This document shows, one piece after another, positions 7,827-26,712 of a DNA stretch of 30,210 nucleotides. Under the pieces are notes generated by a model that searched no databases, had not been told where the DNA came from, and saw only the letters and a program-made list of their open reading frames with translations. The translations under genes were made by a program, and so were the position numbers. Where the stretch lies: positions 1 through 30,210 of IMG/VR virus record IMGVR_UViG_3300047678_000130; one strand, written 5' to 3'. The DNA is from a virus. Numbering within the stretch: position 1 is the first letter of the stretch; each line of letters begins with the position of its first letter.

Positions 7827-9101
7827 TCAATACCATTCCTCTGAATCTTCGGAGCCGCTGCTGATAGGCTTTGTAAGATGCCAAGTAGCGTATCTCATTC
7901 CGTCGAGTAAATGGTTCAGGCCGCGTTGCGGTTCGTCGAGCCAGAGACCGTTCTTGTTCTTCCACGAATGTCCGTTGAGTTCAATGAAAAGGTTCTTGCC
8001 GCCACCGACAGGGCGAAGATCGTACTTCTTCACATTGTTGATCCCGGCCAATACGGATCCCTGCCCTTTCCAAGCTTCGATCACCCAGTAACCGGCCGCT
8101 CGGAGAGCGTCTGCGAACAACGGGCCCGGCTGAGCGTGGTCGTAGACGATCGGGATATTCTTGCTGACGCCAGTCTCTGCGCACCATTGTATGAACGACG
8201 GGATATCCATTTTTGCGGCGTACAACATTTCCTCGACATAGAGCTGCTTTCGGTCTTTGCCGTACTCGTCGACCAGTGCAACCTTGCACATTGCCACCGG
8301 ATCATTCCAACCGAGATCGAGCCCGTAAGCTTGCGGTACACATGGAAGTTCATTGACTTCCGAATAGTCGGGATATAGCAGGCCTTCGAGCCGCTTGCCC
8401 CACATTCCCTGTGCGTAGACGCGCCAGTGATTCGGATTCGTTATTTTGTATGCCTCAAGGCGAACCGCGAATTCCGTATCGATCTCAAGGAGTTTGATAT
8501 TGTCCTTGTAGGTCGTCTTGAAAATAAAATGCCCGGGGAGCCGCGGGATGTGGATCTCTTTATTGATGAAATGCTCGGCGTCGGTCGGATTATAGGTCAG
8601 CGTCCATTGCGTGAACCGAAATCCGCGCAGACGATCGCGAAGAAGGTTCAGATCATCCATCGACCGCATTTCTGTCGCTTCTTCGACCCAACCCCGATCG
8701 GCACCCTGAATTGATTTGATCTTTTGGACGTCGTCGAGGCCGAGAAAAATGAACTCAACATTCGTTCGGAGATTGCGAATGTAATACGGCGATGTTCCGA
8801 ACTTGAAACAGTCGTCGACGCCCCACTGATAGATGATGCTCTTGAGCTGTGAGTAGCAACTTTGGCCTAGACTGTTGTAGTAGCGGCGGGCAACTAACGT
8901 CTTTCGATTGCGTCGCCAATTCTGAAAGGAAAGAACGATCTCCTTCTGCGCGACGAACACGCTCTTACCGGATCCGGCGGATCCGAAATAATGAAGACAC
9001 GACTCCGGCCGCTTGAACGTCGGGATATAGACCGGGTTATAGAGGCCCGGATCCGAGAAATCGAAGACCTCTTCCCGCACGTTCGGTCCATCGAGCGGCA
9101 T
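7827..9101 (-). CDS. terL: Terminase large subunit (packaging ATPase and nuclease)
   Basis: A 424-residue protein. A Walker A motif, GSAGSGKS, lies at residues 40-47, and the Walker B/catalytic Glu region is ADRGWVEEATEM (about 134-145), both normal for the ATPase half of Terminase_3/PBSX-type large terminases. The nuclease half begins with AYGLDLGWNDPVAM (about 255-268), where the Asp is a likely metal ligand, and YDHAQPGP about 320 may be another part of the RNase H-like active site. The enzyme cuts concatemeric DNA and drives it into the prohead through the portal. It starts one base after the small terminase gene. Confidence 0.9.
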   Translation of the reverse strand: MPLDGPNVREEVFDFSDPGLYNPVYIPTFKRPESCLHYFGSAGSGKSVFVAQKEIVLSFQNWRRNRKTLVARRYYNSLGQSCYSQLKSIIYQWGVDDCFKFGTSPYYIRNLRTNVEFIFLGLDDVQKIKSIQGADRGWVEEATEMRSMDDLNLLRDRLRGFRFTQWTLTYNPTDAEHFINKEIHIPRLPGHFIFKTTYKDNIKLLEIDTEFAVRLEAYKITNPNHWRVYAQGMWGKRLEGLLYPDYSEVNELPCVPQAYGLDLGWNDPVAMCKVALVDEYGKDRKQLYVEEMLYAAKMDIPSFIQWCAETGVSKNIPIVYDHAQPGPLFADALRAAGYWVIEAWKGQGSVLAGINNVKKYDLRPVGGGKNLFIELNGHSWKNKNGLWLDEPQRGLNHLLDGMRYATWHLTKPISSGSEDSEEWY

Positions 9102-9996: not shown

Positions 9997-10545
9997 TTAG
10001 ATCAACTGTAAGAACTCATTACGGGCAGCGGGATGATCCATAAACGCCCCCGTCATTTTACTGGTGGTAGTAATGACGCCCGGCTTCTGAACTCCCCGCA
10101 TACTCATACAAAGATGCTGAGCCTTCAACACGACTGCTACTCCCTGAGGATCTAAATGCTCGGTGAGATACTCTGCCACCTGCGTTGTAATACGTTCCTG
10201 GTTTTGCAGTCGGCGACTGAATTTCTCTAAAGTCCGCGCAAGCTTTGATAAACCCACGATCTTTTTATTCGGTATGTATGCAATAAATCCTTCACCAAAG
10301 AACGGGGCAAGATGATGTTCACAGAGGGAGTAAAACGGGATGTTGCTCTGTACGATGACCTCATCATATTGCTCCGCGTCAAAGGTCGTCATCGTAAACT
10401 CGGGCGGTGACAGGAATTCCTGTAAAAACCTTGAATAGCGAGCAGGCGTACTCAGCAACCCTTCTCGCGTCGGGTCGTCAACTGCCTCTAAAATTTGCCT
10501 TACAGCACCTTCCATAATTTGTGTTGTTGAACCGAGAGCCGCCAT
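9997..10545 (-). CDS. folE: GTP cyclohydrolase I (FolE)
   Basis: Catalyses the first step from GTP to 7,8-dihydroneopterin triphosphate, the entry to both folate and 7-deazaguanine synthesis; here the neighbours point to preQ0. Zinc ligands of the family are present: CEHHLAPFFGEGFIAYIP (Cys and His) and KAQHLCMSMRGV (second Cys). The region DDPTREGLLSTPARYSRFLQ is the conserved N-terminal core and VGLSKLARTLEKFSRRLQNQ the central helix. The first available ATG (10575) overlaps queE by 76 bases; I prefer the ATG at 10545, with a weak AAGAG site, though 10515 is also possible. It is the last gene of the cassette on the minus strand. Confidence 0.92.
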   Translation of the reverse strand: MAALGSTTQIMEGAVRQILEAVDDPTREGLLSTPARYSRFLQEFLSPPEFTMTTFDAEQYDEVIVQSNIPFYSLCEHHLAPFFGEGFIAYIPNKKIVGLSKLARTLEKFSRRLQNQERITTQVAEYLTEHLDPQGVAVVLKAQHLCMSMRGVQKPGVITTTSKMTGAFMDHPAARNEFLQLI

Positions 10546-11081
10546 TGTGGGTTGCTCTTGACCAGTTCGATGCAATGATCCAAATTCAAACGATTGATCT
10601 CAAATCCGTCCGAGTGAGGCGATAAATAATAATAGTCGGCCTCGATCGATGGCTGCGGAATCGCTTGCCCTGCGTGCCGCACATATCGCAGTTCATTGAC
10701 CCATTTGAAATTCTTTTGAATTACATGTTCAGCCACTTTCGGCGAAAGCGATACGTAATCCAAATTACTCGGCACGGGATACAGTCCGCTTGTTTCTATC
10801 GCCTGAAAAGTGCCGCCGAAATAATCCACTATCTCTTCAGTTAATTGCTGAGCCGGTTCGCCGCCAGTCCAAATGATACTTGCCCCGGGCGGTATCATCT
10901 CCGCGATCTCGCTCACCTGCATTTGCCTCCCGCTTTCAAACTCCGTGTCGCACCGGACGCCGGATGCGTAACAGGCATCTTTGGTTTTACATCCTTGTAG
11001 CCGCACGAATAGATTAGCGGTGCCGGCGCGGTGCCCTTCGCCTTGTAAGCTATAAAATATCTCGGTAACGTTAAGGTTCAT
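10500..11081 (-). CDS. queE: 7-carboxy-7-deazaguanine synthase (QueE), radical SAM
   Basis: Converts 6-carboxytetrahydropterin to 7-carboxy-7-deazaguanine using SAM and an iron-sulfur cluster. Evidence is the start MNLNVTEIFYSLQGEGHRAG with the family's N-terminal YSLQGEG, the cysteine-bearing loop FVRLQGCKTKDACYASGVRC followed by DTEF, and WTGGEPAQQ (TGGEP motif for SAM binding). The cysteines are spaced CX5CX6C instead of the usual CX3CX2C. At 193 residues it is a little short but complete (LSPK region and C-terminal SVQQHKLWKVL). It overlaps queD by 11 bases and folE by at least 16, indicating coupled translation. Confidence 0.9.
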   Translation of the reverse strand: MNLNVTEIFYSLQGEGHRAGTANLFVRLQGCKTKDACYASGVRCDTEFESGRQMQVSEIAEMIPPGASIIWTGGEPAQQLTEEIVDYFGGTFQAIETSGLYPVPSNLDYVSLSPKVAEHVIQKNFKWVNELRYVRHAGQAIPQPSIEADYYYLSPHSDGFEINRLNLDHCIELVKSNPQWRLSVQQHKLWKVL

Positions 11082-11424
11082 AAGTTGCCGATGTTCTGTC
11101 CGTCTCTTTTACCGTGACGTTTATCAGTTCAGGAATGAGATTTATATACTCATCAAATAACCTCTTTGCGATCAATTCAGCTGTTGGATTGAAATCAAAA
11201 ACATCGTTTAAGTGCCTGTGATCTAGTGCCTCATCCAAGTCTTGTTTGATAACACCTAACTCACGATAATCCCGTACGAATCCAACTGCGTTTAAGGTGT
11301 TGCTCCGAAGCGTTAGCGTTACCGAATAGTTATGCCCGTGGAGCCGGGAGCAAGGATGTTCGGGGCTAAGTCCTTCCAATTTATGGGATGCCGAGAATTC
11401 GAATGTCTTAGAGATAGTGAACAT
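11071..11424 (-). CDS. queD: 6-carboxy-5,6,7,8-tetrahydropterin synthase (QueD)
   Basis: Makes 6-carboxytetrahydropterin from the FolE product. The 117-residue protein has the zinc ligands of the family: His in FSASHKL (residue 14) and two in RLHGHNYSV (about 29-31). The catalytic Cys lies just before, in HPCSRLHGH. The later DHRHLND motif and the C-terminal TVKETDRTSATY (Glu for pterin binding) are also normal. Length is typical of bacterial QueD. It lies between the broken small ORF and queE, with an 11-base overlap with queE. Confidence 0.93.
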   Translation of the reverse strand: MFTISKTFEFSASHKLEGLSPEHPCSRLHGHNYSVTLTLRSNTLNAVGFVRDYRELGVIKQDLDEALDHRHLNDVFDFNPTAELIAKRLFDEYINLIPELINVTVKETDRTSATYEP

Positions 11425-11438
11425 TTTACAAACGGTCC

Positions 11439-11615
11439 TTATACCACTTCGTCCGGGGAGATCAGCCCATATTTCGCACTCAGAATAAACGTTTTATCGC
11501 AGTGCTGTTCTGAATAGGTGAACGCCTTGCGAAATAAATGCGAAGTGTATAAGTCTTTAGCCGGCCAGCTCCCAGTGCGTTTCAGTGCTGCTCAAGCGAC
11601 GAATCCGATCTTCAT
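11439..11615 (-). pseudogene. Broken or recoded DUF6884-like small gene between queC and queD
   Basis: A minus-strand frame starts with ATG at 11615, overlapping the queC stop by 4 bases (ATGA), and reads MKIGFVA, then an in-frame TGA (11592-11594), then AALKRTGSWPAKDLYTSHLF followed by RKAFTYSEQHCDKTFILSAK and YGLISPDEVV before TAA. The latter part fits the DUF6884 pattern (PA.dLYtS.LFrka..yae..Cd..fILSAK.GLl.PdeV). In that family a Cys is expected at the TGA position. There is no ATG, GTG or TTG restart after the TGA. The protein would also be short at its C-terminus (58 residues). It could be a nonsense mutation, a sequencing error, or a recoded stop such as selenocysteine; a decayed gene is the simplest view. 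Confidence 0.65.
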
Positions 11616-12277
11616 AACCACCCCGATGCCTTGGCTTCATAGAAACCCCTTGCCCGCAGTTGAGAGGCTGGGTTATCTAACTGGCCCATTCCCCACTCGT
11701 TCATAGTTAGATCGCCGTTATAGTCGGTCAATGTCTGCGTTCTGATCACCTCCACAATGTTCAGCTCCGCCGCGAGCTTCCAAGTCTCAGCTTTAGTCAG
11801 ATACATCAGAGGCGTATGAATTTTGAAAGTTGTGTCCATCGCTAGTGATGCCGTTATCCCTATCGAATCAATAAAAATCCGACGGCAGTCAGGATAGCCG
11901 CTGAAATCCGTTTGGCAAACGCCGGTCACTATATCGGCGATACCTTGCCCGTAAGCGAAGGATGCGGCAATCGATAAGAACAGCATATTGCGCCCGGCGG
12001 TAAATGACGCGGGTAGCGTTCCGTTGCGGTCGTGTCCGTTGTTGTGGTCTTTAGAGTGATCGGTAAGCGATGATCCGCCGAGCAGTCCGGCGATATTTAG
12101 GACGCGATACTCAACCCCTGCGAGTTCTGCGATCGTAGCCGCCTGCTCAAGTTCCGCCTTGTGCTTCTGCCCGTAATCGAACCCGATCGCAACAACCTCA
12201 TCAAACTCCCGAAGAGCCCAAAAAAGACAGGTTGTCGAATCCTGACCGCCTGATAGCAATACAATGGCCTTGCTCAT
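11612..12277 (-). CDS. queC: 7-cyano-7-deazaguanine synthase (QueC) without zinc cysteines
   Basis: Converts 7-carboxy-7-deazaguanine to preQ0 with ATP and ammonia. The P-loop-like SGGQDSTTC (residues 9-17) and the FDYGQKHKAELE segment are standard for the family, as are FTAGRNMLFLS and the GVCQTDFSGYPDCRRIFIDS region. The start at 12277 gives MSKAIVLLSGG and has GAGG eight bases upstream; a farther ATG (12313) is less likely. The C-terminus is unusual: where QueC normally has TCYNG...GCGxCPAC, this protein has TDYNG at 184-188 and GQLDNPAS at 198-205, so all four zinc cysteines are replaced (Asp185, Gln199, Asn202, Ser205). The fold otherwise looks intact (221 residues). Confidence 0.93.
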   Translation of the reverse strand: MSKAIVLLSGGQDSTTCLFWALREFDEVVAIGFDYGQKHKAELEQAATIAELAGVEYRVLNIAGLLGGSSLTDHSKDHNNGHDRNGTLPASFTAGRNMLFLSIAASFAYGQGIADIVTGVCQTDFSGYPDCRRIFIDSIGITASLAMDTTFKIHTPLMYLTKAETWKLAAELNIVEVIRTQTLTDYNGDLTMNEWGMGQLDNPASQLRARGFYEAKASGWL

Positions 12278-12360
12278 AAATGCACCTCTGCATATCGCTG
12301 AAACTTCACCCACTCGTTAAAGTTATGTTTATGCAGACGCGTAACATCTCCCACTCTCAT
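12274..12360 (-). CDS. Possible 28-residue ORF coupled to queC
   Basis: A short frame (MRVGDVTRLHKHNFNEWVKF...) starts inside the end of the dpdA-like gene and ends with TGA overlapping the queC ATG by 4 bases (ATGA). The overlap is the kind used for translational coupling, but the ribosome site is poor and no homology can be claimed. It may be a leader-type ORF or chance. Confidence 0.22.
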   Translation of the reverse strand: MRVGDVTRLHKHNFNEWVKFQRYAEVHL

Positions 12361-13015
12361 CCCTTTCGGTTTCCTTTGTCGGGCGTTCCGACGCCCGACA
12401 AAGGTCAATGACGCAGACGTTGCCGTACTTCCCGCCGACATTCCAAGTAGTTGAGTCCACGGAATAAAAACGATATTTGAACAGTAGCGGAACGGACGTA
12501 AACCCTAGCCCGTGAACCTTTGCCCCACGTTCCTTGGCTAAGTTAATCAGGGTGGGGAAAAACCTGTATTCGTCTTTCTTGATCTCACCCGACGCGATCC
12601 CGCCGATGGCAACATAATCATATTCTTCACACATCGCGAGCCAGTACGCTTGGCCTCTCGACTTATGCCAAACCGGAATGCTTTTCTTGTTGGTTAACGT
12701 CTCTAGCTTATCCCTCAACCGCTCGACCTCTTTCAGTCCCACAACGGAATCAATATCCAGCTCAAAGAACAGGTCGATGTTGTTCTCGTTTATAAATTGG
12801 GCGTATCGTTCGATATATTCATCCCAACCCGTAGTCTTTTTTTTATTTTGTATAAATGTGAACGCGCCGGAATCAAGCATATGCCGCGATTGCCGCACAT
12901 ACGCGCCATACGCACCGTTTTTATGTTCATAAAATGAACTCAACAAATAAATATCCTCGGTTGGTTCGCCCCAGTGTTTTTCGATAGTTTTGAACCCCGC
13001 CAAATAAACTTTCAT
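12329..13015 (-). CDS. dpdA: DpdA-like DNA guanine transglycosylase (TGT superfamily)
   Basis: DpdA enzymes exchange guanine in DNA for a 7-deazaguanine such as preQ0. The start at 13015 (MKVYLAGFKTIEKHWGEP) overlaps the upstream ParB-like gene by 4 bases (ATGA). Family-like motifs in order: HMLDSGAFTFI (Asp48), FFELDIDSV (Asp87, Asp89), SIPVWHKSRG (113-121), DYVAIGGIASGEI (133-145) and KVHGLGFTSV with YSVDSTTW (Asp187). These resemble a TIM-barrel TGT with candidate catalytic Asp48 and Asp187. At 228 residues it is shorter than tRNA TGT (about 370) and lacks its C-terminal zinc site, as expected for the small phage type. Its position beside folE/queD/queE/queC supports DNA rather than tRNA modification. 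Confidence 0.82.
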   Translation of the reverse strand: MKVYLAGFKTIEKHWGEPTEDIYLLSSFYEHKNGAYGAYVRQSRHMLDSGAFTFIQNKKKTTGWDEYIERYAQFINENNIDLFFELDIDSVVGLKEVERLRDKLETLTNKKSIPVWHKSRGQAYWLAMCEEYDYVAIGGIASGEIKKDEYRFFPTLINLAKERGAKVHGLGFTSVPLLFKYRFYSVDSTTWNVGGKYGNVCVIDLCRASERPTKETERDESGRCYASA

Positions 13016-13617
13016 AGCCCACACAACGCCCACACCGCCGCCTCATACGTCTTGCCGTGCTTTAGCAAAGCCGCTTTAACAAGCTCGATTTCGTCAAGTC
13101 CGTAATGCAAAACTATCTTTTCCTTATCCTCTTTCTCCTCCGTATCCTCAATAAACAATCCGTCTAGATCCGGCATCGGTTCAAAGGACGGCACATCTAA
13201 GCCCCAATCTCCAAGCGGCAGATCGGACCATTCCCCGTTTGCAAGGACATCCCAATCCCACGATCCGCCGCTCGAATTGGCGACGATGCAGGCCTGTTTG
13301 AATTCCCGCTTTGTAAAGGCAACCTCCCGATAAGCGAATTTCTCGCCACCGTAAGTGATGAAACCGTGAGCCAGTGTCTTTTGCGGCGTAGGCTGATCAA
13401 ACCGCTCGACGACCTCGATCTCGCAGCCGTCCATGATCTCGCTACGCATGTTCCCGCCGAGATAAGCCTTATTTTTAGTGCAATAAACGACCCCCGAGAG
13501 ATCGCCGAGCGTTTCAAGGTGCTTTTTGAGCAACTCGAACTGTTCACCGGTAATTTGGCGAGGATTGGCGGTATATTTCCGGCTTTTATCTATCCGTTGC
13601 GGAGTGTCGGTTGGCAT
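13012..13617 (-). CDS. ParB/Srx-like domain protein
   Basis: A 201-residue protein with a ParB N-terminal-like fold: NPRQITGEQFELLKKHLETL, then GGNMRSEIMDG (about 54-64; the G-x-x-R turn of ParB-like nucleotide-binding proteins) and later KREFKQACIVANSSGGSWDW and LPLGDWGLDVP. This pattern is usual in phage proteins that have a ParB-like domain fused or adjacent to DNA modification enzymes, but no methyltransferase domain follows here. The C-terminal part is acidic and helical (FIEDTEEKEDKEKIV). The gene overlaps the dpdA-like gene by 4 bases, so the two are probably co-translated. A role in choosing DNA sites for modification is an inference. Confidence 0.68.
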   Translation of the reverse strand: MPTDTPQRIDKSRKYTANPRQITGEQFELLKKHLETLGDLSGVVYCTKNKAYLGGNMRSEIMDGCEIEVVERFDQPTPQKTLAHGFITYGGEKFAYREVAFTKREFKQACIVANSSGGSWDWDVLANGEWSDLPLGDWGLDVPSFEPMPDLDGLFIEDTEEKEDKEKIVLHYGLDEIELVKAALLKHGKTYEAAVWALCGL

Positions 13618-13648: not shown

Positions 13649-14320
13649 TTATTGTCCGATCTTCATGGCGGTGCCGAAAAAGCCCTGAAGTTCGCCACCC
13701 GGACGCACGTCTGGGTTGGCCTGAATGCGGATCGCGATAAAGCCTGAGTTGTCGTAGCGAAACTTGATCGTCGAGTCGATCGGCATCTTATTCTCGATCG
13801 CTTCATTTAATTCGCGAAGGAAGCGTGTGCGATCATCGGCGTGGATCCGTGCAACGTAGCTGCGGTGAGTAAGATCGGTCTCTTCGGCGTCAAGGATCTC
13901 CCGGAAAGCGCAGTTTGCAAACGTGAGATGGCCTGCGGCGTCGAGTTCAAAGATCGGCTTGGTGTTGGTTTCGTCCTGATGACGAACGCGGGCCTGAATA
14001 TGTTCGACCTTTCGATCGATCCGACAGACCATGTCTTTAACGCTGGATCCGCCATTGGTGCGGAGCTCAGCGTCAATGCGATTGATCTTTTCGCCAAACT
14101 CGTCAAATTTGGATATCAAGCCATCAAGTTTTTGGCGACGTGACGCCCTCGGCGTGATCCATTTTTCCTTGAACGGTTGCCATCCATCGACGCGGATGTC
14201 CTTGATCGCTTTGATCGCGGCGGCTAAGAGTACAAGTAGAGAAAAGCCGCCTGCGATGATCTCGAAGGCGGTTATCGTGTAGCCGAATATTTCCATGGCG
14301 ACTAAGTGAATCGTGGGCAT
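13649..14320 (-). CDS. Membrane-anchored PAS-domain protein
   Basis: A 223-residue protein with a single N-terminal membrane segment (about 13-37, FGYTITAFEIIAGGFSLLVL then LAAAIKAIK), a helical linker (about 60-115, ISKFDEFGEKINRIDAELRT, SVKDMVCRIDRKVEHIQARV) and a C-terminal PAS domain (about 120-220: PIFELDAAGHLTFANCAFRE, then RIHADDRTRFLRELNEAI and a strand IKFRYDNSGFIAIRIQA). There is no kinase or cyclase domain. Similar TM-coiled coil-PAS proteins occur in other phages, with no known function. It is near lysis genes, so it may be a holin-like or sensory lysis protein, but this is speculation. Start uncertain (14320 or 14296). Confidence 0.7.
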   Translation of the reverse strand: MPTIHLVAMEIFGYTITAFEIIAGGFSLLVLLAAAIKAIKDIRVDGWQPFKEKWITPRASRRQKLDGLISKFDEFGEKINRIDAELRTNGGSSVKDMVCRIDRKVEHIQARVRHQDETNTKPIFELDAAGHLTFANCAFREILDAEETDLTHRSYVARIHADDRTRFLRELNEAIENKMPIDSTIKFRYDNSGFIAIRIQANPDVRPGGELQGFFGTAMKIGQ

Positions 14321-17375: not shown

Positions 17376-18428
17376 TCACCATCCATCATAAAAACCTTCC
17401 ACGACCGGGTCTTTCCAGTCGGACTCACTCCGCTCGACGATCGCGTAGATCTTCTTTCGAGCGCCGCGGGCCTCATCGGTCTTTCCGCCCTGCATCAGGA
17501 CCTCGATCATTCCGTGATCTAGCATCTGGCTGATCGTCGCATCGAATTTGTTCGACTCGACACCTGAAGCCTTTCGGCAATCGGTGTGCTCAGCCTGCCC
17601 GGTGCGGATCGCGGCAATGATCCGATCGTAGTTGCTCACCGTTTCCTCAGAGAGCTCGGTTTGAGCAAGCTCCTCGATCGCGTCCATCAGGAATCTCTGG
17701 TGCGCCGGGAACTGCTGACCGACGAGCTGGATCGCGGCAAGGAAGTTCTCGTCCGTATCAGCTACGCCGGCCGAGCACACAACGCAGACCTTTCCGCCTC
17801 GCGTCGCATTAACGAGCGACTTCTCCCGGATCTTGCTCAGCAGTTTTTTAGTCTTGCTTCGGCCGGCCTTGATCAGTCGCTTTTGCCGATACTTCGGAAG
17901 TTTCGAGAGATCGGACGCGGCACTCACGCTAATCTCACCGGCCTCGACCTTCTCGATCAGTTCCGGAACCCCGTCGCGAACTATTCGCTCTGCGGATGAA
18001 ATGCTTCGCGGACTGACGTTAAGTAACTGAGCCGCGTGGTTTTGCGTGATCGATCCGCAAATTTGCGTATCCTCGCCGACGCTGAACTGATTGTCACCAC
18101 GTTGCATATTCGTGATCTTCTGAGCGACCATCGCACGTTGCGATTCATTCAGATGCCGGCGGTTGAGATTGAGGCTGACGACAAACGCGACAACCGAACC
18201 CGAACCGCTCCATTCCTGAAACTTCGGCTCGATCCCGAGATCCTGACAGGCGTTGTAGCGATTCCGGCCGTCGATGATCTTGTCATCGTGGAGCCAGATC
18301 GCCTCACGCTGACCGTTCGCCTCGATATCCGAACGAAGACCGGCAAACTCCGTCTCCGTCATAAGCGGGAACATATCCGCGATCGGGTGGAATTGCTTGG
18401 CCGTTTTTGTTACCTGTGATTCAGACAT
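17376..18428 (-). CDS. ParB-like DNA-binding protein
   Basis: A 350-residue protein with a ParB/Spo0J N-terminal domain (about 15-115): FAGLRSDIEANGQREAIWLH, IIDGRNRYNACQDLG (the ParB box with GRNR) and LNLNRRHLNESQRAMVAQKI. A helix-turn-helix follows (about 130-165, QNHAAQLLNVSPRSISSAER) and then SVSAASDLSKLPKYRQKRLI. The C-terminal part has a pattern like a winged helix (about 285-345). ParB-like proteins bind sites on DNA and some use CTP; in phages they act in partition, regulation or as antirepressors. No ParA gene is in the window, so a regulator of phage genes or replication is more likely than partition. Confidence 0.75.
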   Translation of the reverse strand: MSESQVTKTAKQFHPIADMFPLMTETEFAGLRSDIEANGQREAIWLHDDKIIDGRNRYNACQDLGIEPKFQEWSGSGSVVAFVVSLNLNRRHLNESQRAMVAQKITNMQRGDNQFSVGEDTQICGSITQNHAAQLLNVSPRSISSAERIVRDGVPELIEKVEAGEISVSAASDLSKLPKYRQKRLIKAGRSKTKKLLSKIREKSLVNATRGGKVCVVCSAGVADTDENFLAAIQLVGQQFPAHQRFLMDAIEELAQTELSEETVSNYDRIIAAIRTGQAEHTDCRKASGVESNKFDATISQMLDHGMIEVLMQGGKTDEARGARKKIYAIVERSESDWKDPVVEGFYDGW

Positions 18429-18531: not shown

Positions 18532-19677
18532 TCAAGTCGTGTCCACGGTCTCGAATACACCGGTCTCGATCTCCCACTCGAACGTGAACTCGCCTAATCC
18601 GAGTCCTGTAAGAGCTTCGTAGATCGTTTCGGAATAGACCTCACGAACCCAGTCGTGAGTGATCTGATCTGCCCTGACCTTGAAGGCGTTCTTGTCGGCG
18701 TTTAGGCCATCGAAGATGATCTGCTTGAACCACGAATTGAACGGATCGAACGGGATCTGTTTGGCGATCAGGTCCAGAACTGCTCGGAAGAGTTCGCGTT
18801 CTTCCGGCGTCGATGGATCGGGCGGCCGTCGCGGTCGCGGCACGACGGCCGGCTGCGATTCGGATTCGACCCGTATCGATTCGGGTTTGGGTTTTGTCGC
18901 TGCCCGGCCGAGTGCTCCGTGATGATTCGGGATTCCGTGGCAGTACCACTCACGAGCCCAGGCGTAGTTGATCGGACGGAAGCCGCGGCCCCGCCACTCG
19001 ATAAAGCAGTTTCGGAGGCGGCTGGTGTCTGGGTTGTCGCCGATCTCAGCGATGAGGACATCCCAGATTTCTTTCGGAGGGTAGATAGAGGCGATCTCGC
19101 GGATCGCTGCTATCGCCGGATGCTTCGATCGCTCGTCGCCGTTTTTGGATCCTGTGGGAACGGACGCTTCGTCCGCTCTCTTAGAAATAAATGGTTTAAA
19201 CGGTTCATCCTTATATGCACCCCCGTTTTTGTCCAAAAATTGCACCTTTTCTGCATCAAAATTGCACCTTTTATCGTCCGTAAAAGGTGCAGTGGGCTGC
19301 ACCTTTTCTGCGTCAGAATTGCACCTTTTATCATCGCTAAAAGGTGCAATAGAATGCACCTTTTCTTCTTCCGCGATCGTGGTATTTTTTTCATTAAAAG
19401 GTGCAGTGGGGTGCACCTTTTTGAGTTGATATGAAGATAGATGTCCGCGTCCCCGGCCTCTGATCACGTCAACATATCCGAGCTCGCTCAATTTCTTGAT
19501 CAGAGTCTGAGTTTGACGTTTTTCCTTTCGGATCTTTCTCGACAGCAATTCGGTCCCCGGCCAGCATTTACCGTCTGAATCAGCATGATCAGCGATCGCG
19601 ATGGCGATCAGTAAGAGCGTTCCGTGTAGACGTTTATCGTCGTTGTCTAAGAAATAGCCGATCCATTGTGCCGACAT
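18532..19677 (-). CDS. Replication initiator: winged helix plus DnaA N-domain-like C-terminus
   Basis: A 381-residue protein. The N-terminal part (about 1-85) is a winged-helix domain of phage replication proteins: QWIGYFLDNDDKRLHGTLLL, then CWPGTELLSRKIRKEKRQTQ. The middle (about 86-150) is a set of 19-residue repeats coded by the iteron DNA (KVHSIAPFSDDKRCNSDAE, KVQPTAPFTDDKRCNFDAE). The C-terminal part (about 315-370, FDPFNSWFKQIIFDGL, AFKVRADQITHDWVREVYSE) resembles domain I of DnaA (W...L..l....l.l.vpn.f..dWi...y...i..al), used to recruit helicase. The whole fits a phage O-like initiator binding its own origin. The start at 19677 gives MSAQWIGYF. Confidence 0.75.
   Translation of the reverse strand: MSAQWIGYFLDNDDKRLHGTLLLIAIAIADHADSDGKCWPGTELLSRKIRKEKRQTQTLIKKLSELGYVDVIRGRGRGHLSSYQLKKVHPTAPFNEKNTTIAEEEKVHSIAPFSDDKRCNSDAEKVQPTAPFTDDKRCNFDAEKVQFLDKNGGAYKDEPFKPFISKRADEASVPTGSKNGDERSKHPAIAAIREIASIYPPKEIWDVLIAEIGDNPDTSRLRNCFIEWRGRGFRPINYAWAREWYCHGIPNHHGALGRAATKPKPESIRVESESQPAVVPRPRRPPDPSTPEERELFRAVLDLIAKQIPFDPFNSWFKQIIFDGLNADKNAFKVRADQITHDWVREVYSETIYEALTGLGLGEFTFEWEIETGVFETVDTT
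19241..19421. repeat. Iteron array within the initiator gene: probable replication origin
   Basis: Nine exact copies of the 10-mer TGCACCTTTT: six forward (starting 19241, 19263, 19298, 19320, 19355, 19412) and three reverse AAAAGGTGCA (19282, 19339, 19396). Three 26-bp inverted pairs, each AAAAGGTGCA-N6-TGCACCTTTT, begin exactly 57 bp apart, and each forward copy is often followed by another 22 bp away. The 57-bp period is 19 codons, so the reading frame is kept. An AT-rich stretch is at 19383-19399. Position inside the initiator gene resembles the lambda O/ori arrangement. The site is likely where the initiator binds. Confidence 0.8.
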
Positions 19678-22932: not shown

Positions 22933-23009
22933 GTCCGCGTTCACCCAAAATCCGGGGCTGATCCGGATATTTTCCTGTCAATTTCTTCGTCGATCCTCGA
23001 TGTCTGCTA

Positions 23010-23040
23010 CAAATATAAAGATATTCTTTATATTTGTCAA
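23010..23040 (-). promoter_or_regulatory. Leftward early promoter with embedded 27-bp palindromic operator
   Basis: On the minus strand a TTGACA (+ strand 23040-23035) and TATATT (23017-23012) are separated by 17 bases, a near-consensus sigma70-type promoter. A perfect inverted repeat with half-site CAAATATAAAGA fills 23010-23036, so a bound repressor would cover both boxes. The identical 27-bp sequence occurs at 26686-26712. The promoter points to the early and late genes on the left. Confidence 0.82.
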
Positions 23041-23318: not shown

Positions 23319-23347
23319 AATATAAAGATTTCCTTTAGTTATGTCAA
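23319..23347 (-). promoter_or_regulatory. Promoter of the Cro-like gene with operator
   Basis: On the minus strand TTGACA (23347-23342), 17 bases, then TATATT (23324-23319). The spacer holds an imperfect operator (TATAAAGA...CCTTTAGTT on the plus strand, 23321-23340). The start codon at 23311 lies seven bases after the -10 box, so transcription would begin at or next to the ATG. Confidence 0.8.
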
Positions 23348-23383
23348 CCATCTCTTTAGTTGAGCGAAAATGCGGTCACAAAG

Positions 23384-23398
23384 TAAAGTTATTCTTTA
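23384..23398. promoter_or_regulatory. Operator-like site before the repressor gene
   Basis: TAAAG (23384-23388) and CTTTA (23394-23398) form an inverted repeat with a 5-base centre, one mismatch from the AAAGA-N3-TCTTT core. It ends six bases before the repressor ATG, suiting autoregulation. No clear -35/-10 pair for the repressor is seen. Confidence 0.5.
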
Positions 23399-23403
23399 TT
23401 TAT

Positions 23404-23814
23404 ATGAATTATGGTGAGCGCCTAAAATCTGTTCGTAAAGCCCGGGGCCTGACCCAGGAGCAGTTAGCCGAAAAGGTCTCCGCGGCTGGCCATACAGTCT
23501 CGTCGTCATACGTGAGCATGATCGAGCGTATTTATGAGAAGCGGCTCGACGGGCTGCCGACGCGCCCCGCTAGACGGTTCGTAGAACTGGCTGCCAAGAT
23601 CCTTGATGACGACATTAACGAAGCCCTAATGGATGCCGACTATGCGCCGCTCGATCGTGAACGGTTTCGTCAAGACGATGGAATGTTTAGCGGTTGGGAT
23701 AAGGTGCCGGAACATCTTCGGCCACTCGCTCGAAAGCAAGTTCAGGCAATCATCGAATCGCTGATCGATAATGAGGACAATGACACGGATTACATAGACG
23801 ACGCCGGACATTAG
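23404..23814 (+). CDS. XRE-family repressor (ImmR-like)
   Basis: A 136-residue protein from ATG 23404 (MNYGERLKSVRKARGLTQEQ); the longer frame to 23341 runs through the operators and is unlikely. Residues 1-65 form a clear XRE helix-turn-helix (LTQEQLAEKVSAAGHTVSSS, YVSMIERIYE), then an acidic C-terminal part. It lacks the peptidase domain of LexA/CI repressors. The next gene is an ImmA/IrrE protease, the usual partner that cleaves such repressors on induction (as in ICEBs1 and related phages). No Shine-Dalgarno site is visible, so the mRNA may be leaderless. Confidence 0.82.
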   Translation: MNYGERLKSVRKARGLTQEQLAEKVSAAGHTVSSSYVSMIERIYEKRLDGLPTRPARRFVELAAKILDDDINEALMDADYAPLDRERFRQDDGMFSGWDKVPEHLRPLARKQVQAIIESLIDNEDNDTDYIDDAGH

Positions 23815-25335: not shown

Positions 25336-26538
25336 CTACCGTCCCTTAAATATATCAATAAATTCTTCTGCGCTCATAGCACCGGTTCGCACTTTCTCGT
25401 AGATCTCTGCGAGCGGAAGTGAGGGCTTGTTGCCGTACAATCTCCGCATTGCTTTACCGCGTTCTTCTTCGGACGCGTGGGAATAGTAGTCGACCATCTC
25501 CTTGCTCGCGTGGCCGGTGAAACTCGCGGCCGTCGCGATATCCGTGACCCTGACGAGCCGGCTTGTGAACGAGTGGCGATTTGAATGAAAGGTCACGCCA
25601 TGACGCTCGTTTCGACCGTACCTGATCCCGTTCACCTCGCAGGCTTCGCGAACCAGGTCTTCAACCGTGTGGCGCGAACACTTGAGATCGAATATCCGAT
25701 CGGAGCTCGAGTCTTTGATCGATTCATCTAGTATCGTCACAACGCGATCAGGAAGTTCCGGCAATACGCTGACCGTATCCGTCTTCCAACGCACGACGGT
25801 GAGTTTCCGGCGCTTGCGATCGTAGTCAGACTTAAGTAGCTTTTCGATCTCGCCGATCCGAAGACCGAGCATCCATGCCAGTTCAAACATTCGCGCCACG
25901 ACCGGCCGGGCCGCGACTCGCTCCGGACGTTCTCGAACTCGCTGCCTAACTGATAACGTCGCGACGATCGCGGCTGCCTCATCGTGAGTGATCTCGCGCC
26001 GCGAGCGTTTCCCCCTCGACACCTTCGGCCGGACGACCGGAGCCTCGAAATCTTCCTGCATCTGAGGAAAGATCAGTGAGGCTCGATTGAACGCGCTCGA
26101 CAGTTCGTTGATCTCTCGGTTGATCGTCTCTGGCTTTACGCCGTCGAGTTCCCTAGTTCTTATATATGCGCGGAAATGGGCCTTGCCGACGGCAGTAATA
26201 CCGATGTCGTAGTCGAGCAAGGATTCAAAACATCCGTAGATCCGCTCGCAGCGGATCCGGGTGCGATGTGAATCCAGTTCCTGCATTCTAGCTTCGAATA
26301 ACTGAGATACGGTTGGCTCGTGCCCGTTATCCGTTTGAGCGATGCCGGCCGCCGCGTACGTCTTCTTGCTCTTGATCTGAGCCGCGAAACTCTCAGCCTC
26401 TGCTTTCGTCGGAAATACCGTTCGGATCCGCTTGCCCCGCGATCGTATATCCACACGATATCCGACGTAGCATTTTGTCGCCGCGTCGTATCGGAGCTGC
26501 GGCTTGCGCCGCGCAAATGTAACCCGAGAAATCCCCAT
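25336..26538 (-). CDS. int: Tyrosine recombinase / phage integrase
   Basis: A 400-residue protein. The C-terminal catalytic domain (about 200-370) has ELAWMLGLRIGEIEKL with the first catalytic Arg, VRWKTDTVS with Lys, HSNRHSFTSRLV with the His-x-x-Arg pair, TGHASKEM with the next His, and MVDYYSH with the nucleophile Tyr. The N-terminal part (about 1-70) is an arm-binding-like domain and about 75-170 a core-binding domain. It carries out integration and excision at the nearby attP. The 3' end faces the att site. An operator (26574-26594) lies upstream, so int may be under repressor control. Confidence 0.92.
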   Translation of the reverse strand: MGISRVTFARRKPQLRYDAATKCYVGYRVDIRSRGKRIRTVFPTKAEAESFAAQIKSKKTYAAAGIAQTDNGHEPTVSQLFEARMQELDSHRTRIRCERIYGCFESLLDYDIGITAVGKAHFRAYIRTRELDGVKPETINREINELSSAFNRASLIFPQMQEDFEAPVVRPKVSRGKRSRREITHDEAAAIVATLSVRQRVRERPERVAARPVVARMFELAWMLGLRIGEIEKLLKSDYDRKRRKLTVVRWKTDTVSVLPELPDRVVTILDESIKDSSSDRIFDLKCSRHTVEDLVREACEVNGIRYGRNERHGVTFHSNRHSFTSRLVRVTDIATAASFTGHASKEMVDYYSHASEEERGKAMRRLYGNKPSLPLAEIYEKVRTGAMSAEEFIDIFKGR

Positions 26539-26681: not shown

Positions 26682-26712
26682 TTGACAAATATAAAGATAT
26701 TCTTTATATTTG
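26682..26712 (+). promoter_or_regulatory. Rightward promoter with 27-bp palindromic operator
   Basis: TTGACA (26682-26687), 17 bases and TATATT (26705-26710) form a near-consensus promoter. The 27-bp palindrome (26686-26712) is identical to that at 23010-23036. The following gene starts at 26723, 12 bases after the -10 box, so its mRNA would have almost no leader. The same protein would repress both promoters. Confidence 0.82.

Follow-up and report, generated by a model that had tools for sequence, protein, structure and literature searches.

Gene content of the cassette

IMG/VR record IMGVR_UViG_3300047678_000130, analysed here over its full 30,210 bases (the window) and classed as a linear fragment, carries genes for 7-deazaguanine synthesis and a DpdA-like transglycosylase on its minus strand. 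Phages use this gene set to swap guanine in their DNA for a modified base that blocks restriction enzymes. In reading order the genes are dpdA, a DNA-guanine transglycosylase (12329–13015; phrog_887, E 9e-49), queC, preQ0 synthase (11612–12277; Pfam QueC, E 8e-63; PDB 3bl5, E 3e-59), queD, 6-carboxytetrahydropterin synthase (11071–11424; PTPS, E 2e-29; TIGR03367, E 4e-24), queE, 7-carboxy-7-deazaguanine synthase (10500–11081; PDB 4njg, E 5e-20), and folE, GTP cyclohydrolase I (9997–10575; Pfam GTP_cyclohydroI, E 8e-62; TIGR00063, over its cut-off). The family matches of all five proteins lie far beyond chance. They bear out an earlier note, made from the sequence alone, which had read these genes as a cassette for 7-deazaguanine modification of DNA.

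Some details of that note needed correction. The five named genes stand, though they are preceded in the operon by one more, a ParB-like gene (13012–13617, minus strand; phrog_498, E 5e-9; phrog_620, E 3e-6) that overlaps the start of dpdA and moves the beginning of the operon to 13617. The genes were also described as mostly overlapping, which does not hold between queC and queD, where 187 bp intervene (11425–11611); in many relatives these two genes overlap. The window QueD differs from that of most relatives, and this together with the gap suggests that queD may have been exchanged. Downstream of the operon, the conserved neighbour is the terminase large subunit gene (7827–9101, minus strand; Pfam Terminase_3, E 1e-33, and synteny).

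DpdA and its frameshift

A profile built from 40 relatives of the window DpdA recovered the proven DpdAs of phages 9g (5e-33) and CAjan (3e-30), as well as those of BcepGomr (6e-34) and phiFN37 (4e-72). Seven bacterial tRNA-guanine transglycosylases (TGTs) scored between 0.08 and 1.7 with the same profile. The window protein also shares phrog_887 with the DpdAs of 9g and CAjan, both of which were tested, and matches models of bacterial DpdA weakly. As neither the DpdA sequence profile against the PDB nor a Pfam scan of the 40 family members for a TGT domain gave a match, a fold comparison was needed. The AlphaFold2 model of the intact DpdA of one relative, L003, had a mean predicted local distance difference test score (pLDDT) of 91.6, and its top PDB match in Foldseek was a TGT (7a4x; E 1.2e-4, template-modelling score 0.56), with Cap10, an enzyme of the cyclic-oligonucleotide-based antiphage signalling system, ranking close behind. 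Asp48 and Asp187, proposed earlier as the catalytic residues, are invariant across the 40 aligned relatives. These relatives have about 245 amino acids, compared with about 380 for TGT and 306 for the CAjan enzyme. By profile and model, the window transglycosylase belongs with the 9g/CAjan type of DpdA and not with tRNA TGT. A grouping with tRNA TGT, the outcome named in the earlier note as contrary to its reading, was not seen in the profile scores, and the fold match and the two invariant aspartates agree with the DpdA-like assignment. The enzyme would place a 7-deazaguanine in DNA.

The dpdA frame as it stands encodes 228 amino acids, which had been taken for a naturally short DpdA. It is instead the product of a frameshift. 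The frame is intact in the relatives, where the protein ends in HNFxEWxKFxxYAExxL; in the window the frame is broken, and the conserved C-terminus, HNFNEWVKFQRYAEVHL, is found in another frame (open reading frame 12274–12441, minus strand). This counterpart, HKHNFNEWVKFQRYAEVHL, ends at 12274, with a stop codon overlapping the QueC ATG at 12277. The catalytic core, including Asp48 and Asp187, precedes the break and stays complete.

The frameshift coincides with a perfect 14-bp hairpin (12373–12404, minus strand; folding z −5.5); toward the 3' end of dpdA in the relatives, comparable stems reach at most 9 bp. A mutation at this quasi-palindrome or an assembly error would each explain the frameshift. 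A search with the 25-base stretch after it turned up no other virus contig with that stretch, and hence no second copy for comparison. Programmed frameshifting as a feature of the clade was rejected, because the relatives read straight through. With the break 3' of the catalytic core, this copy of dpdA is possibly inactive, barring an assembly error or suppression of the frameshift.

ParB-like gene and operon order

A ParB-like homologue lies on the same strand at 72 of 119 related dpdA loci, and most of these genes overlap the dpdA start by 4 bp (here and below, locus counts include near-copies). The exact order parB-dpdA-queC-queD-queE-folE-terminase (TerL) is found at 58 of the 89 viral loci with a QueC of the window's zinc-less kind (described below), and 73 of the 84 loci among them that bear folE have a terminase gene no more than 5 kb downstream in the same orientation. 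The ParB_N domain was detected in 28 of 33 homologues of the ParB-like protein; the window protein gave no ParB_N match at a threshold of 0.001. The profile of the ParB-like family also matches ParB proteins of known structure, at up to 2e-7.

A ParB-like domain adjoining DpdA, as in the bacterial DpdB, is therefore present here. Bacterial DpdB is a ParB-like ATPase used in preQ0 insertion (PMC12839542), and by this analogy the window protein is probably a DNA partner of DpdA. PADLOC gave no match for it at E 1, a result that leaves aside whether PADLOC holds a DpdB model, as this was not checked. We do not class the protein as a DpdB. Related arrangements occur with other DNA-modifying enzymes. 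Immediately ahead of the terminase genes of Bacteroides phage BS-TP3, a ParB-like gene overlaps one for a methyltransferase, and in Streptococcus phage Javan394 a related ParB-like domain is fused to a methylase near terminase. ParBc domains have been described next to the cytosine carboxymethyltransferases of phages and as fusions with methyltransferases, and their role there is called unknown (PMC12783734).

Fusobacterium phage phiFN37 has two more ParB-like genes near its ParB-dpdA pair. In the window, a 350-amino-acid protein (17376–18428) matches phrog_21315, of unknown function, and the ParB-like phrog_4715, and a PAS-domain protein (13649–14320; Pfam PAS, E 3e-11) is encoded just upstream of the operon.

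QueC without a zinc site and QueE with a respaced motif

Canonical QueC (PF06508 cluster 1) is defined by Libby et al. 2026 (PMC13329287) through SGGxDS, YxQxHxxE, VPxRN, YPDC, and C(x)8CxxCxxC, with zinc stated as required; the sections consulted describe no zinc-less QueC with the canonical signature. The window QueC keeps SGGxDS, YxQxHxxE, and YPDC, has TAGRN in place of VPxRN (sharing its RN), and retains the conserved Lys and the essential Tyr beside the first zinc position. In contrast to the canonical enzyme, it has none of the four zinc cysteines: the C-terminal tail (11615–11728, minus strand) reads TDYNG-DLTM-NEWGMG-QL-DNPAS through this region.

We assembled 127 zinc-less QueC sequences. 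All 127 have SGGxDS and YPDC, 126 have YxQxHxxE, and 123 have no cysteine in the tail. Cysteine-pattern counts at viral loci are biased in that most of these loci were found through zinc-less QueC motifs. The sequences come from viruses and from bacteria (Rhodothermota, Cytophagales, Planctomycetes, Poribacteria, and others), including 8 of 148 sampled genomes of the phylum of Spirosoma. In a tree computed with the zinc columns left out, two changes are enough to account for where zinc is present, but many branches are weak, and a single loss is neither shown nor excluded. In 13 of 17 genomes examined, a chromosomal zinc-less QueC is the sole strong QueC match and a full-length tRNA TGT is present as well, which makes it likely, from gene content, that the zinc-less protein is a working preQ0 enzyme. 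Zinc economy is an unlikely cause of the loss: on inspection, the zinc ligands of FolE and QueD are in place. A zinc-less QueC in Spirosoma spitsbergense (L059) lies near dpdA-like or TGT-like genes, perhaps in a bacterial Dpd island.

QueE is also unusual, a point that, like the lost zinc site of QueC, had escaped the earlier note. The radical S-adenosylmethionine motif is generally CX3CX2C, with a special QueE form CX14CX2C (PMC4389238). The window protein has neither a CxxxCxxC nor a Cx14CxxC motif, and does not reach the curated cut-off of any QueE model in NCBIfam, TIGR04508 for Cx14CxxC-QueE (E 1e-27) included. Its three cysteines are arranged as C31-x5-C37-x6-C44 (10950–10991, minus strand), followed by DTEF, and the Cx5Cx6C spacing is invariant in 56 sequences. 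A second viral QueE form is Cx3Cx18C, and the QueEs of bacterial zinc-less-QueC neighbourhoods are, by the same parsing, mostly Cx20Cx3C. The GGEP motif is present in 153 of 156 QueE homologues. The closest family and structure matches are to the Burkholderia multivorans type of QueE, which differs in having Cx14CxxC. We infer that the respaced QueE keeps its normal reaction.

Predicted product and comparison with known systems

FolE, QueD, QueE, QueC, and DpdA form the minimal set that gives 2'-deoxy-7-cyano-7-deazaguanine (dPreQ0) in CAjan and Rosebush (PMC6884629). Among the scanned window proteins we found no QueF, no glutamine amidotransferase-fused QueC (Gat-QueC), and no ArcS. The earlier note's statement that QueF and a QueC-fused amidotransferase are missing thus holds for these proteins; it does not extend beyond the fragment that the record represents. 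No Rfam family reached its gathering threshold in the window, and thus no known preQ1 riboswitch was found. A true QueF lies near folE in 6 of 23 relatives, and weaker matches in others look like cross-matches to FolE. dPreQ0 is the simplest product to predict, in line with the earlier note.

We consider it likely that parB-dpdA-queC-queD-queE-folE together form a system, with variant enzymes, by which the phage puts a 7-deazaguanine, probably as dPreQ0, into its DNA. FolE, QueD, QueE, and QueC would convert GTP to preQ0, the zinc-free QueC and respaced QueE presumably keeping their normal reactions, and DpdA, a small enzyme of TGT fold, would replace guanines of the phage genome with preQ0. 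On DNA, the ParB-like protein is probably a partner of DpdA, acting as a clamp or using NTP in a way comparable to bacterial DpdB. As the terminase genes follow the operon directly, the two may act shortly before packaging.

The nearest known system is that of CAjan and Rosebush, which has the same five enzyme types, a phrog_887 DpdA (tested for CAjan), and no amidotransferase, as none was found among the scanned window proteins either. The window differs from it in the coupled ParB-like gene, the compact operon before terminase, the zinc-less QueC, the Cx5Cx6C QueE, and the integrase. Enterobacteria phage 9g shares a DpdA homologue, FolE, QueD, and QueE; it uses Gat-QueC and makes 2'-deoxyarchaeosine (dG+), whereas no Gat domain was found among the scanned window proteins. 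The bacterial Dpd system (DpdA, the ParB-like ATPase DpdB, and DpdC) has a comparable pairing of TGT-type enzyme and ParB-like protein, but no DpdC or restriction genes were found in the window. Phage phiFN37 likewise has a ParB-like gene overlapping a closely related dpdA; in the stretch read, it has a queuosine precursor transporter beside dpdA and no que synthesis genes.

Alternative explanations

A number of points weigh against a working modification system of this kind. The dpdA of this record has lost its conserved C-terminus, PMC13329287 states that QueC function requires zinc, the DNA of CAjan and 9g is modified although neither has a ParB gene beside dpdA, the AlphaFold2 model of the ParB-like protein was poor (mean pLDDT 64.7) and was left unused, and a literature search found no experiment on this cassette clade. 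The frameshift, at a hairpin unique to the window record, could mean that the cassette has decayed here, with dpdA a pseudogene and preQ0 either produced without being inserted into DNA or never produced. We think this rather unlikely: the five other frames are intact, the DpdA catalytic core is complete, and misassembly of a metagenome contig can give rise to a single frameshift, with no second copy found for comparison. That the ParB-like gene is unrelated to DpdA and a mere operon-mate, such as a regulator or a partition-like protein of the packaging region, is a serious possibility, though short of probable. ParB-like genes precede terminase in phages lacking DpdA too, and none is annotated beside dpdA in CAjan, 9g, or BcepGomr, so DpdA phages do not generally need one. 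Its frequent overlap with the dpdA start on the same strand, and the fusion or overlap of the same domain with DNA methyltransferases in other phages (PMC12783734), argue instead for a functional link.

The final base could also be 2'-deoxy-7-amido-7-deazaguanine (dADG) or another derivative, if the zinc-less QueC goes no further than the amide or an unseen enzyme of phage or host takes the product onward. QueC reaches preQ0 by way of 7-amido-7-deazaguanine (PMC13329287), and phage MED16 is reported to contain dADG (PMC8306585); the window QueC has lost its zinc site, and QueF in six relatives indicates that products vary within the clade. We regard this as improbable, as the window QueC keeps every residue found essential by mutagenesis in PMC13329287, and bacteria with a tRNA TGT and only a zinc-less QueC imply that preQ0 is made, unless they salvage it. 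Very improbable is a role in host tRNA queuosine or salvage, in which the DpdA-like protein would serve as a tRNA TGT. The preQ0 pathway is common to tRNA modification and the fold is that of TGT, but the protein groups with DNA-acting DpdAs, is far shorter than TGT in the relatives, and is coupled to a ParB-like gene and terminase genes.

A phage DNA modification system therefore remains our preferred reading. Its general kind is known, while in the literature consulted we found no report of the zinc-less QueC, the Cx5Cx6C QueE, or the ParB-like lead gene. We put forward only tentatively the broader idea that the ParB-like protein is a shared, interchangeable DNA-targeting partner of unrelated phage DNA modifiers (methyltransferases, carboxymethyltransferase, DpdA) acting just before packaging, together with a QueC that makes preQ0 without a zinc site and a QueE that works with Cx5Cx6C. 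The clade offers a natural test of whether QueC needs zinc (no fewer than 13 bacterial genomes seem to depend on the zinc-less form), of how far the QueE cluster motif can be respaced, and of the part played by ParB-like domains next to the DNA modification enzymes of phages, which PMC12783734 calls unknown.

Integrase, repressor, and a related prophage

The window encodes a tyrosine integrase (25336–26538, minus strand; phrog_1, E 1e-42) and a helix-turn-helix (HTH) repressor-like protein (23341–23814, plus strand; phrog_3, E 1e-7; HTH_31), as the earlier note had seen, and an M78 protease is present too. Such systems were said to occur usually in lytic phages, and this is consistent with an integrase family match in 1 of 38 related virus records, most of which are fragments. 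A prophage has the cassette as well: a 123-kb contig of Cruoricaptor ignavus DSM 25479 carries it, with zinc-less QueC and Cx5Cx6C QueE, adjoining terminase, portal, major head, and tape-measure genes. The system is thus found both in a phage that has genes for an integrase and a repressor and in a prophage of the Bacteroidota. It may protect phage DNA from restriction, and could have a role in entry into new hosts. All of the cassette lies in the C. ignavus prophage (contig C9, L217/L218); apart from the prophage QueC, the genome of this bacterium has no strong QueC match, and it also encodes a TGT.

Two sets of repeats were also seen in the window. A palindrome with a CAAATATAAAGATATTCTTTATATTTG core occurs twice (23009–23037 and 26686–26712) around the region of the repressor, protease, and integrase, and these may be operator sites. 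Several TGCACCTTTTA/TAAAAGGTGCA palindromes at 19263–19350, within a replication-initiation gene (18532–19677), are iteron-like and could mark an origin.

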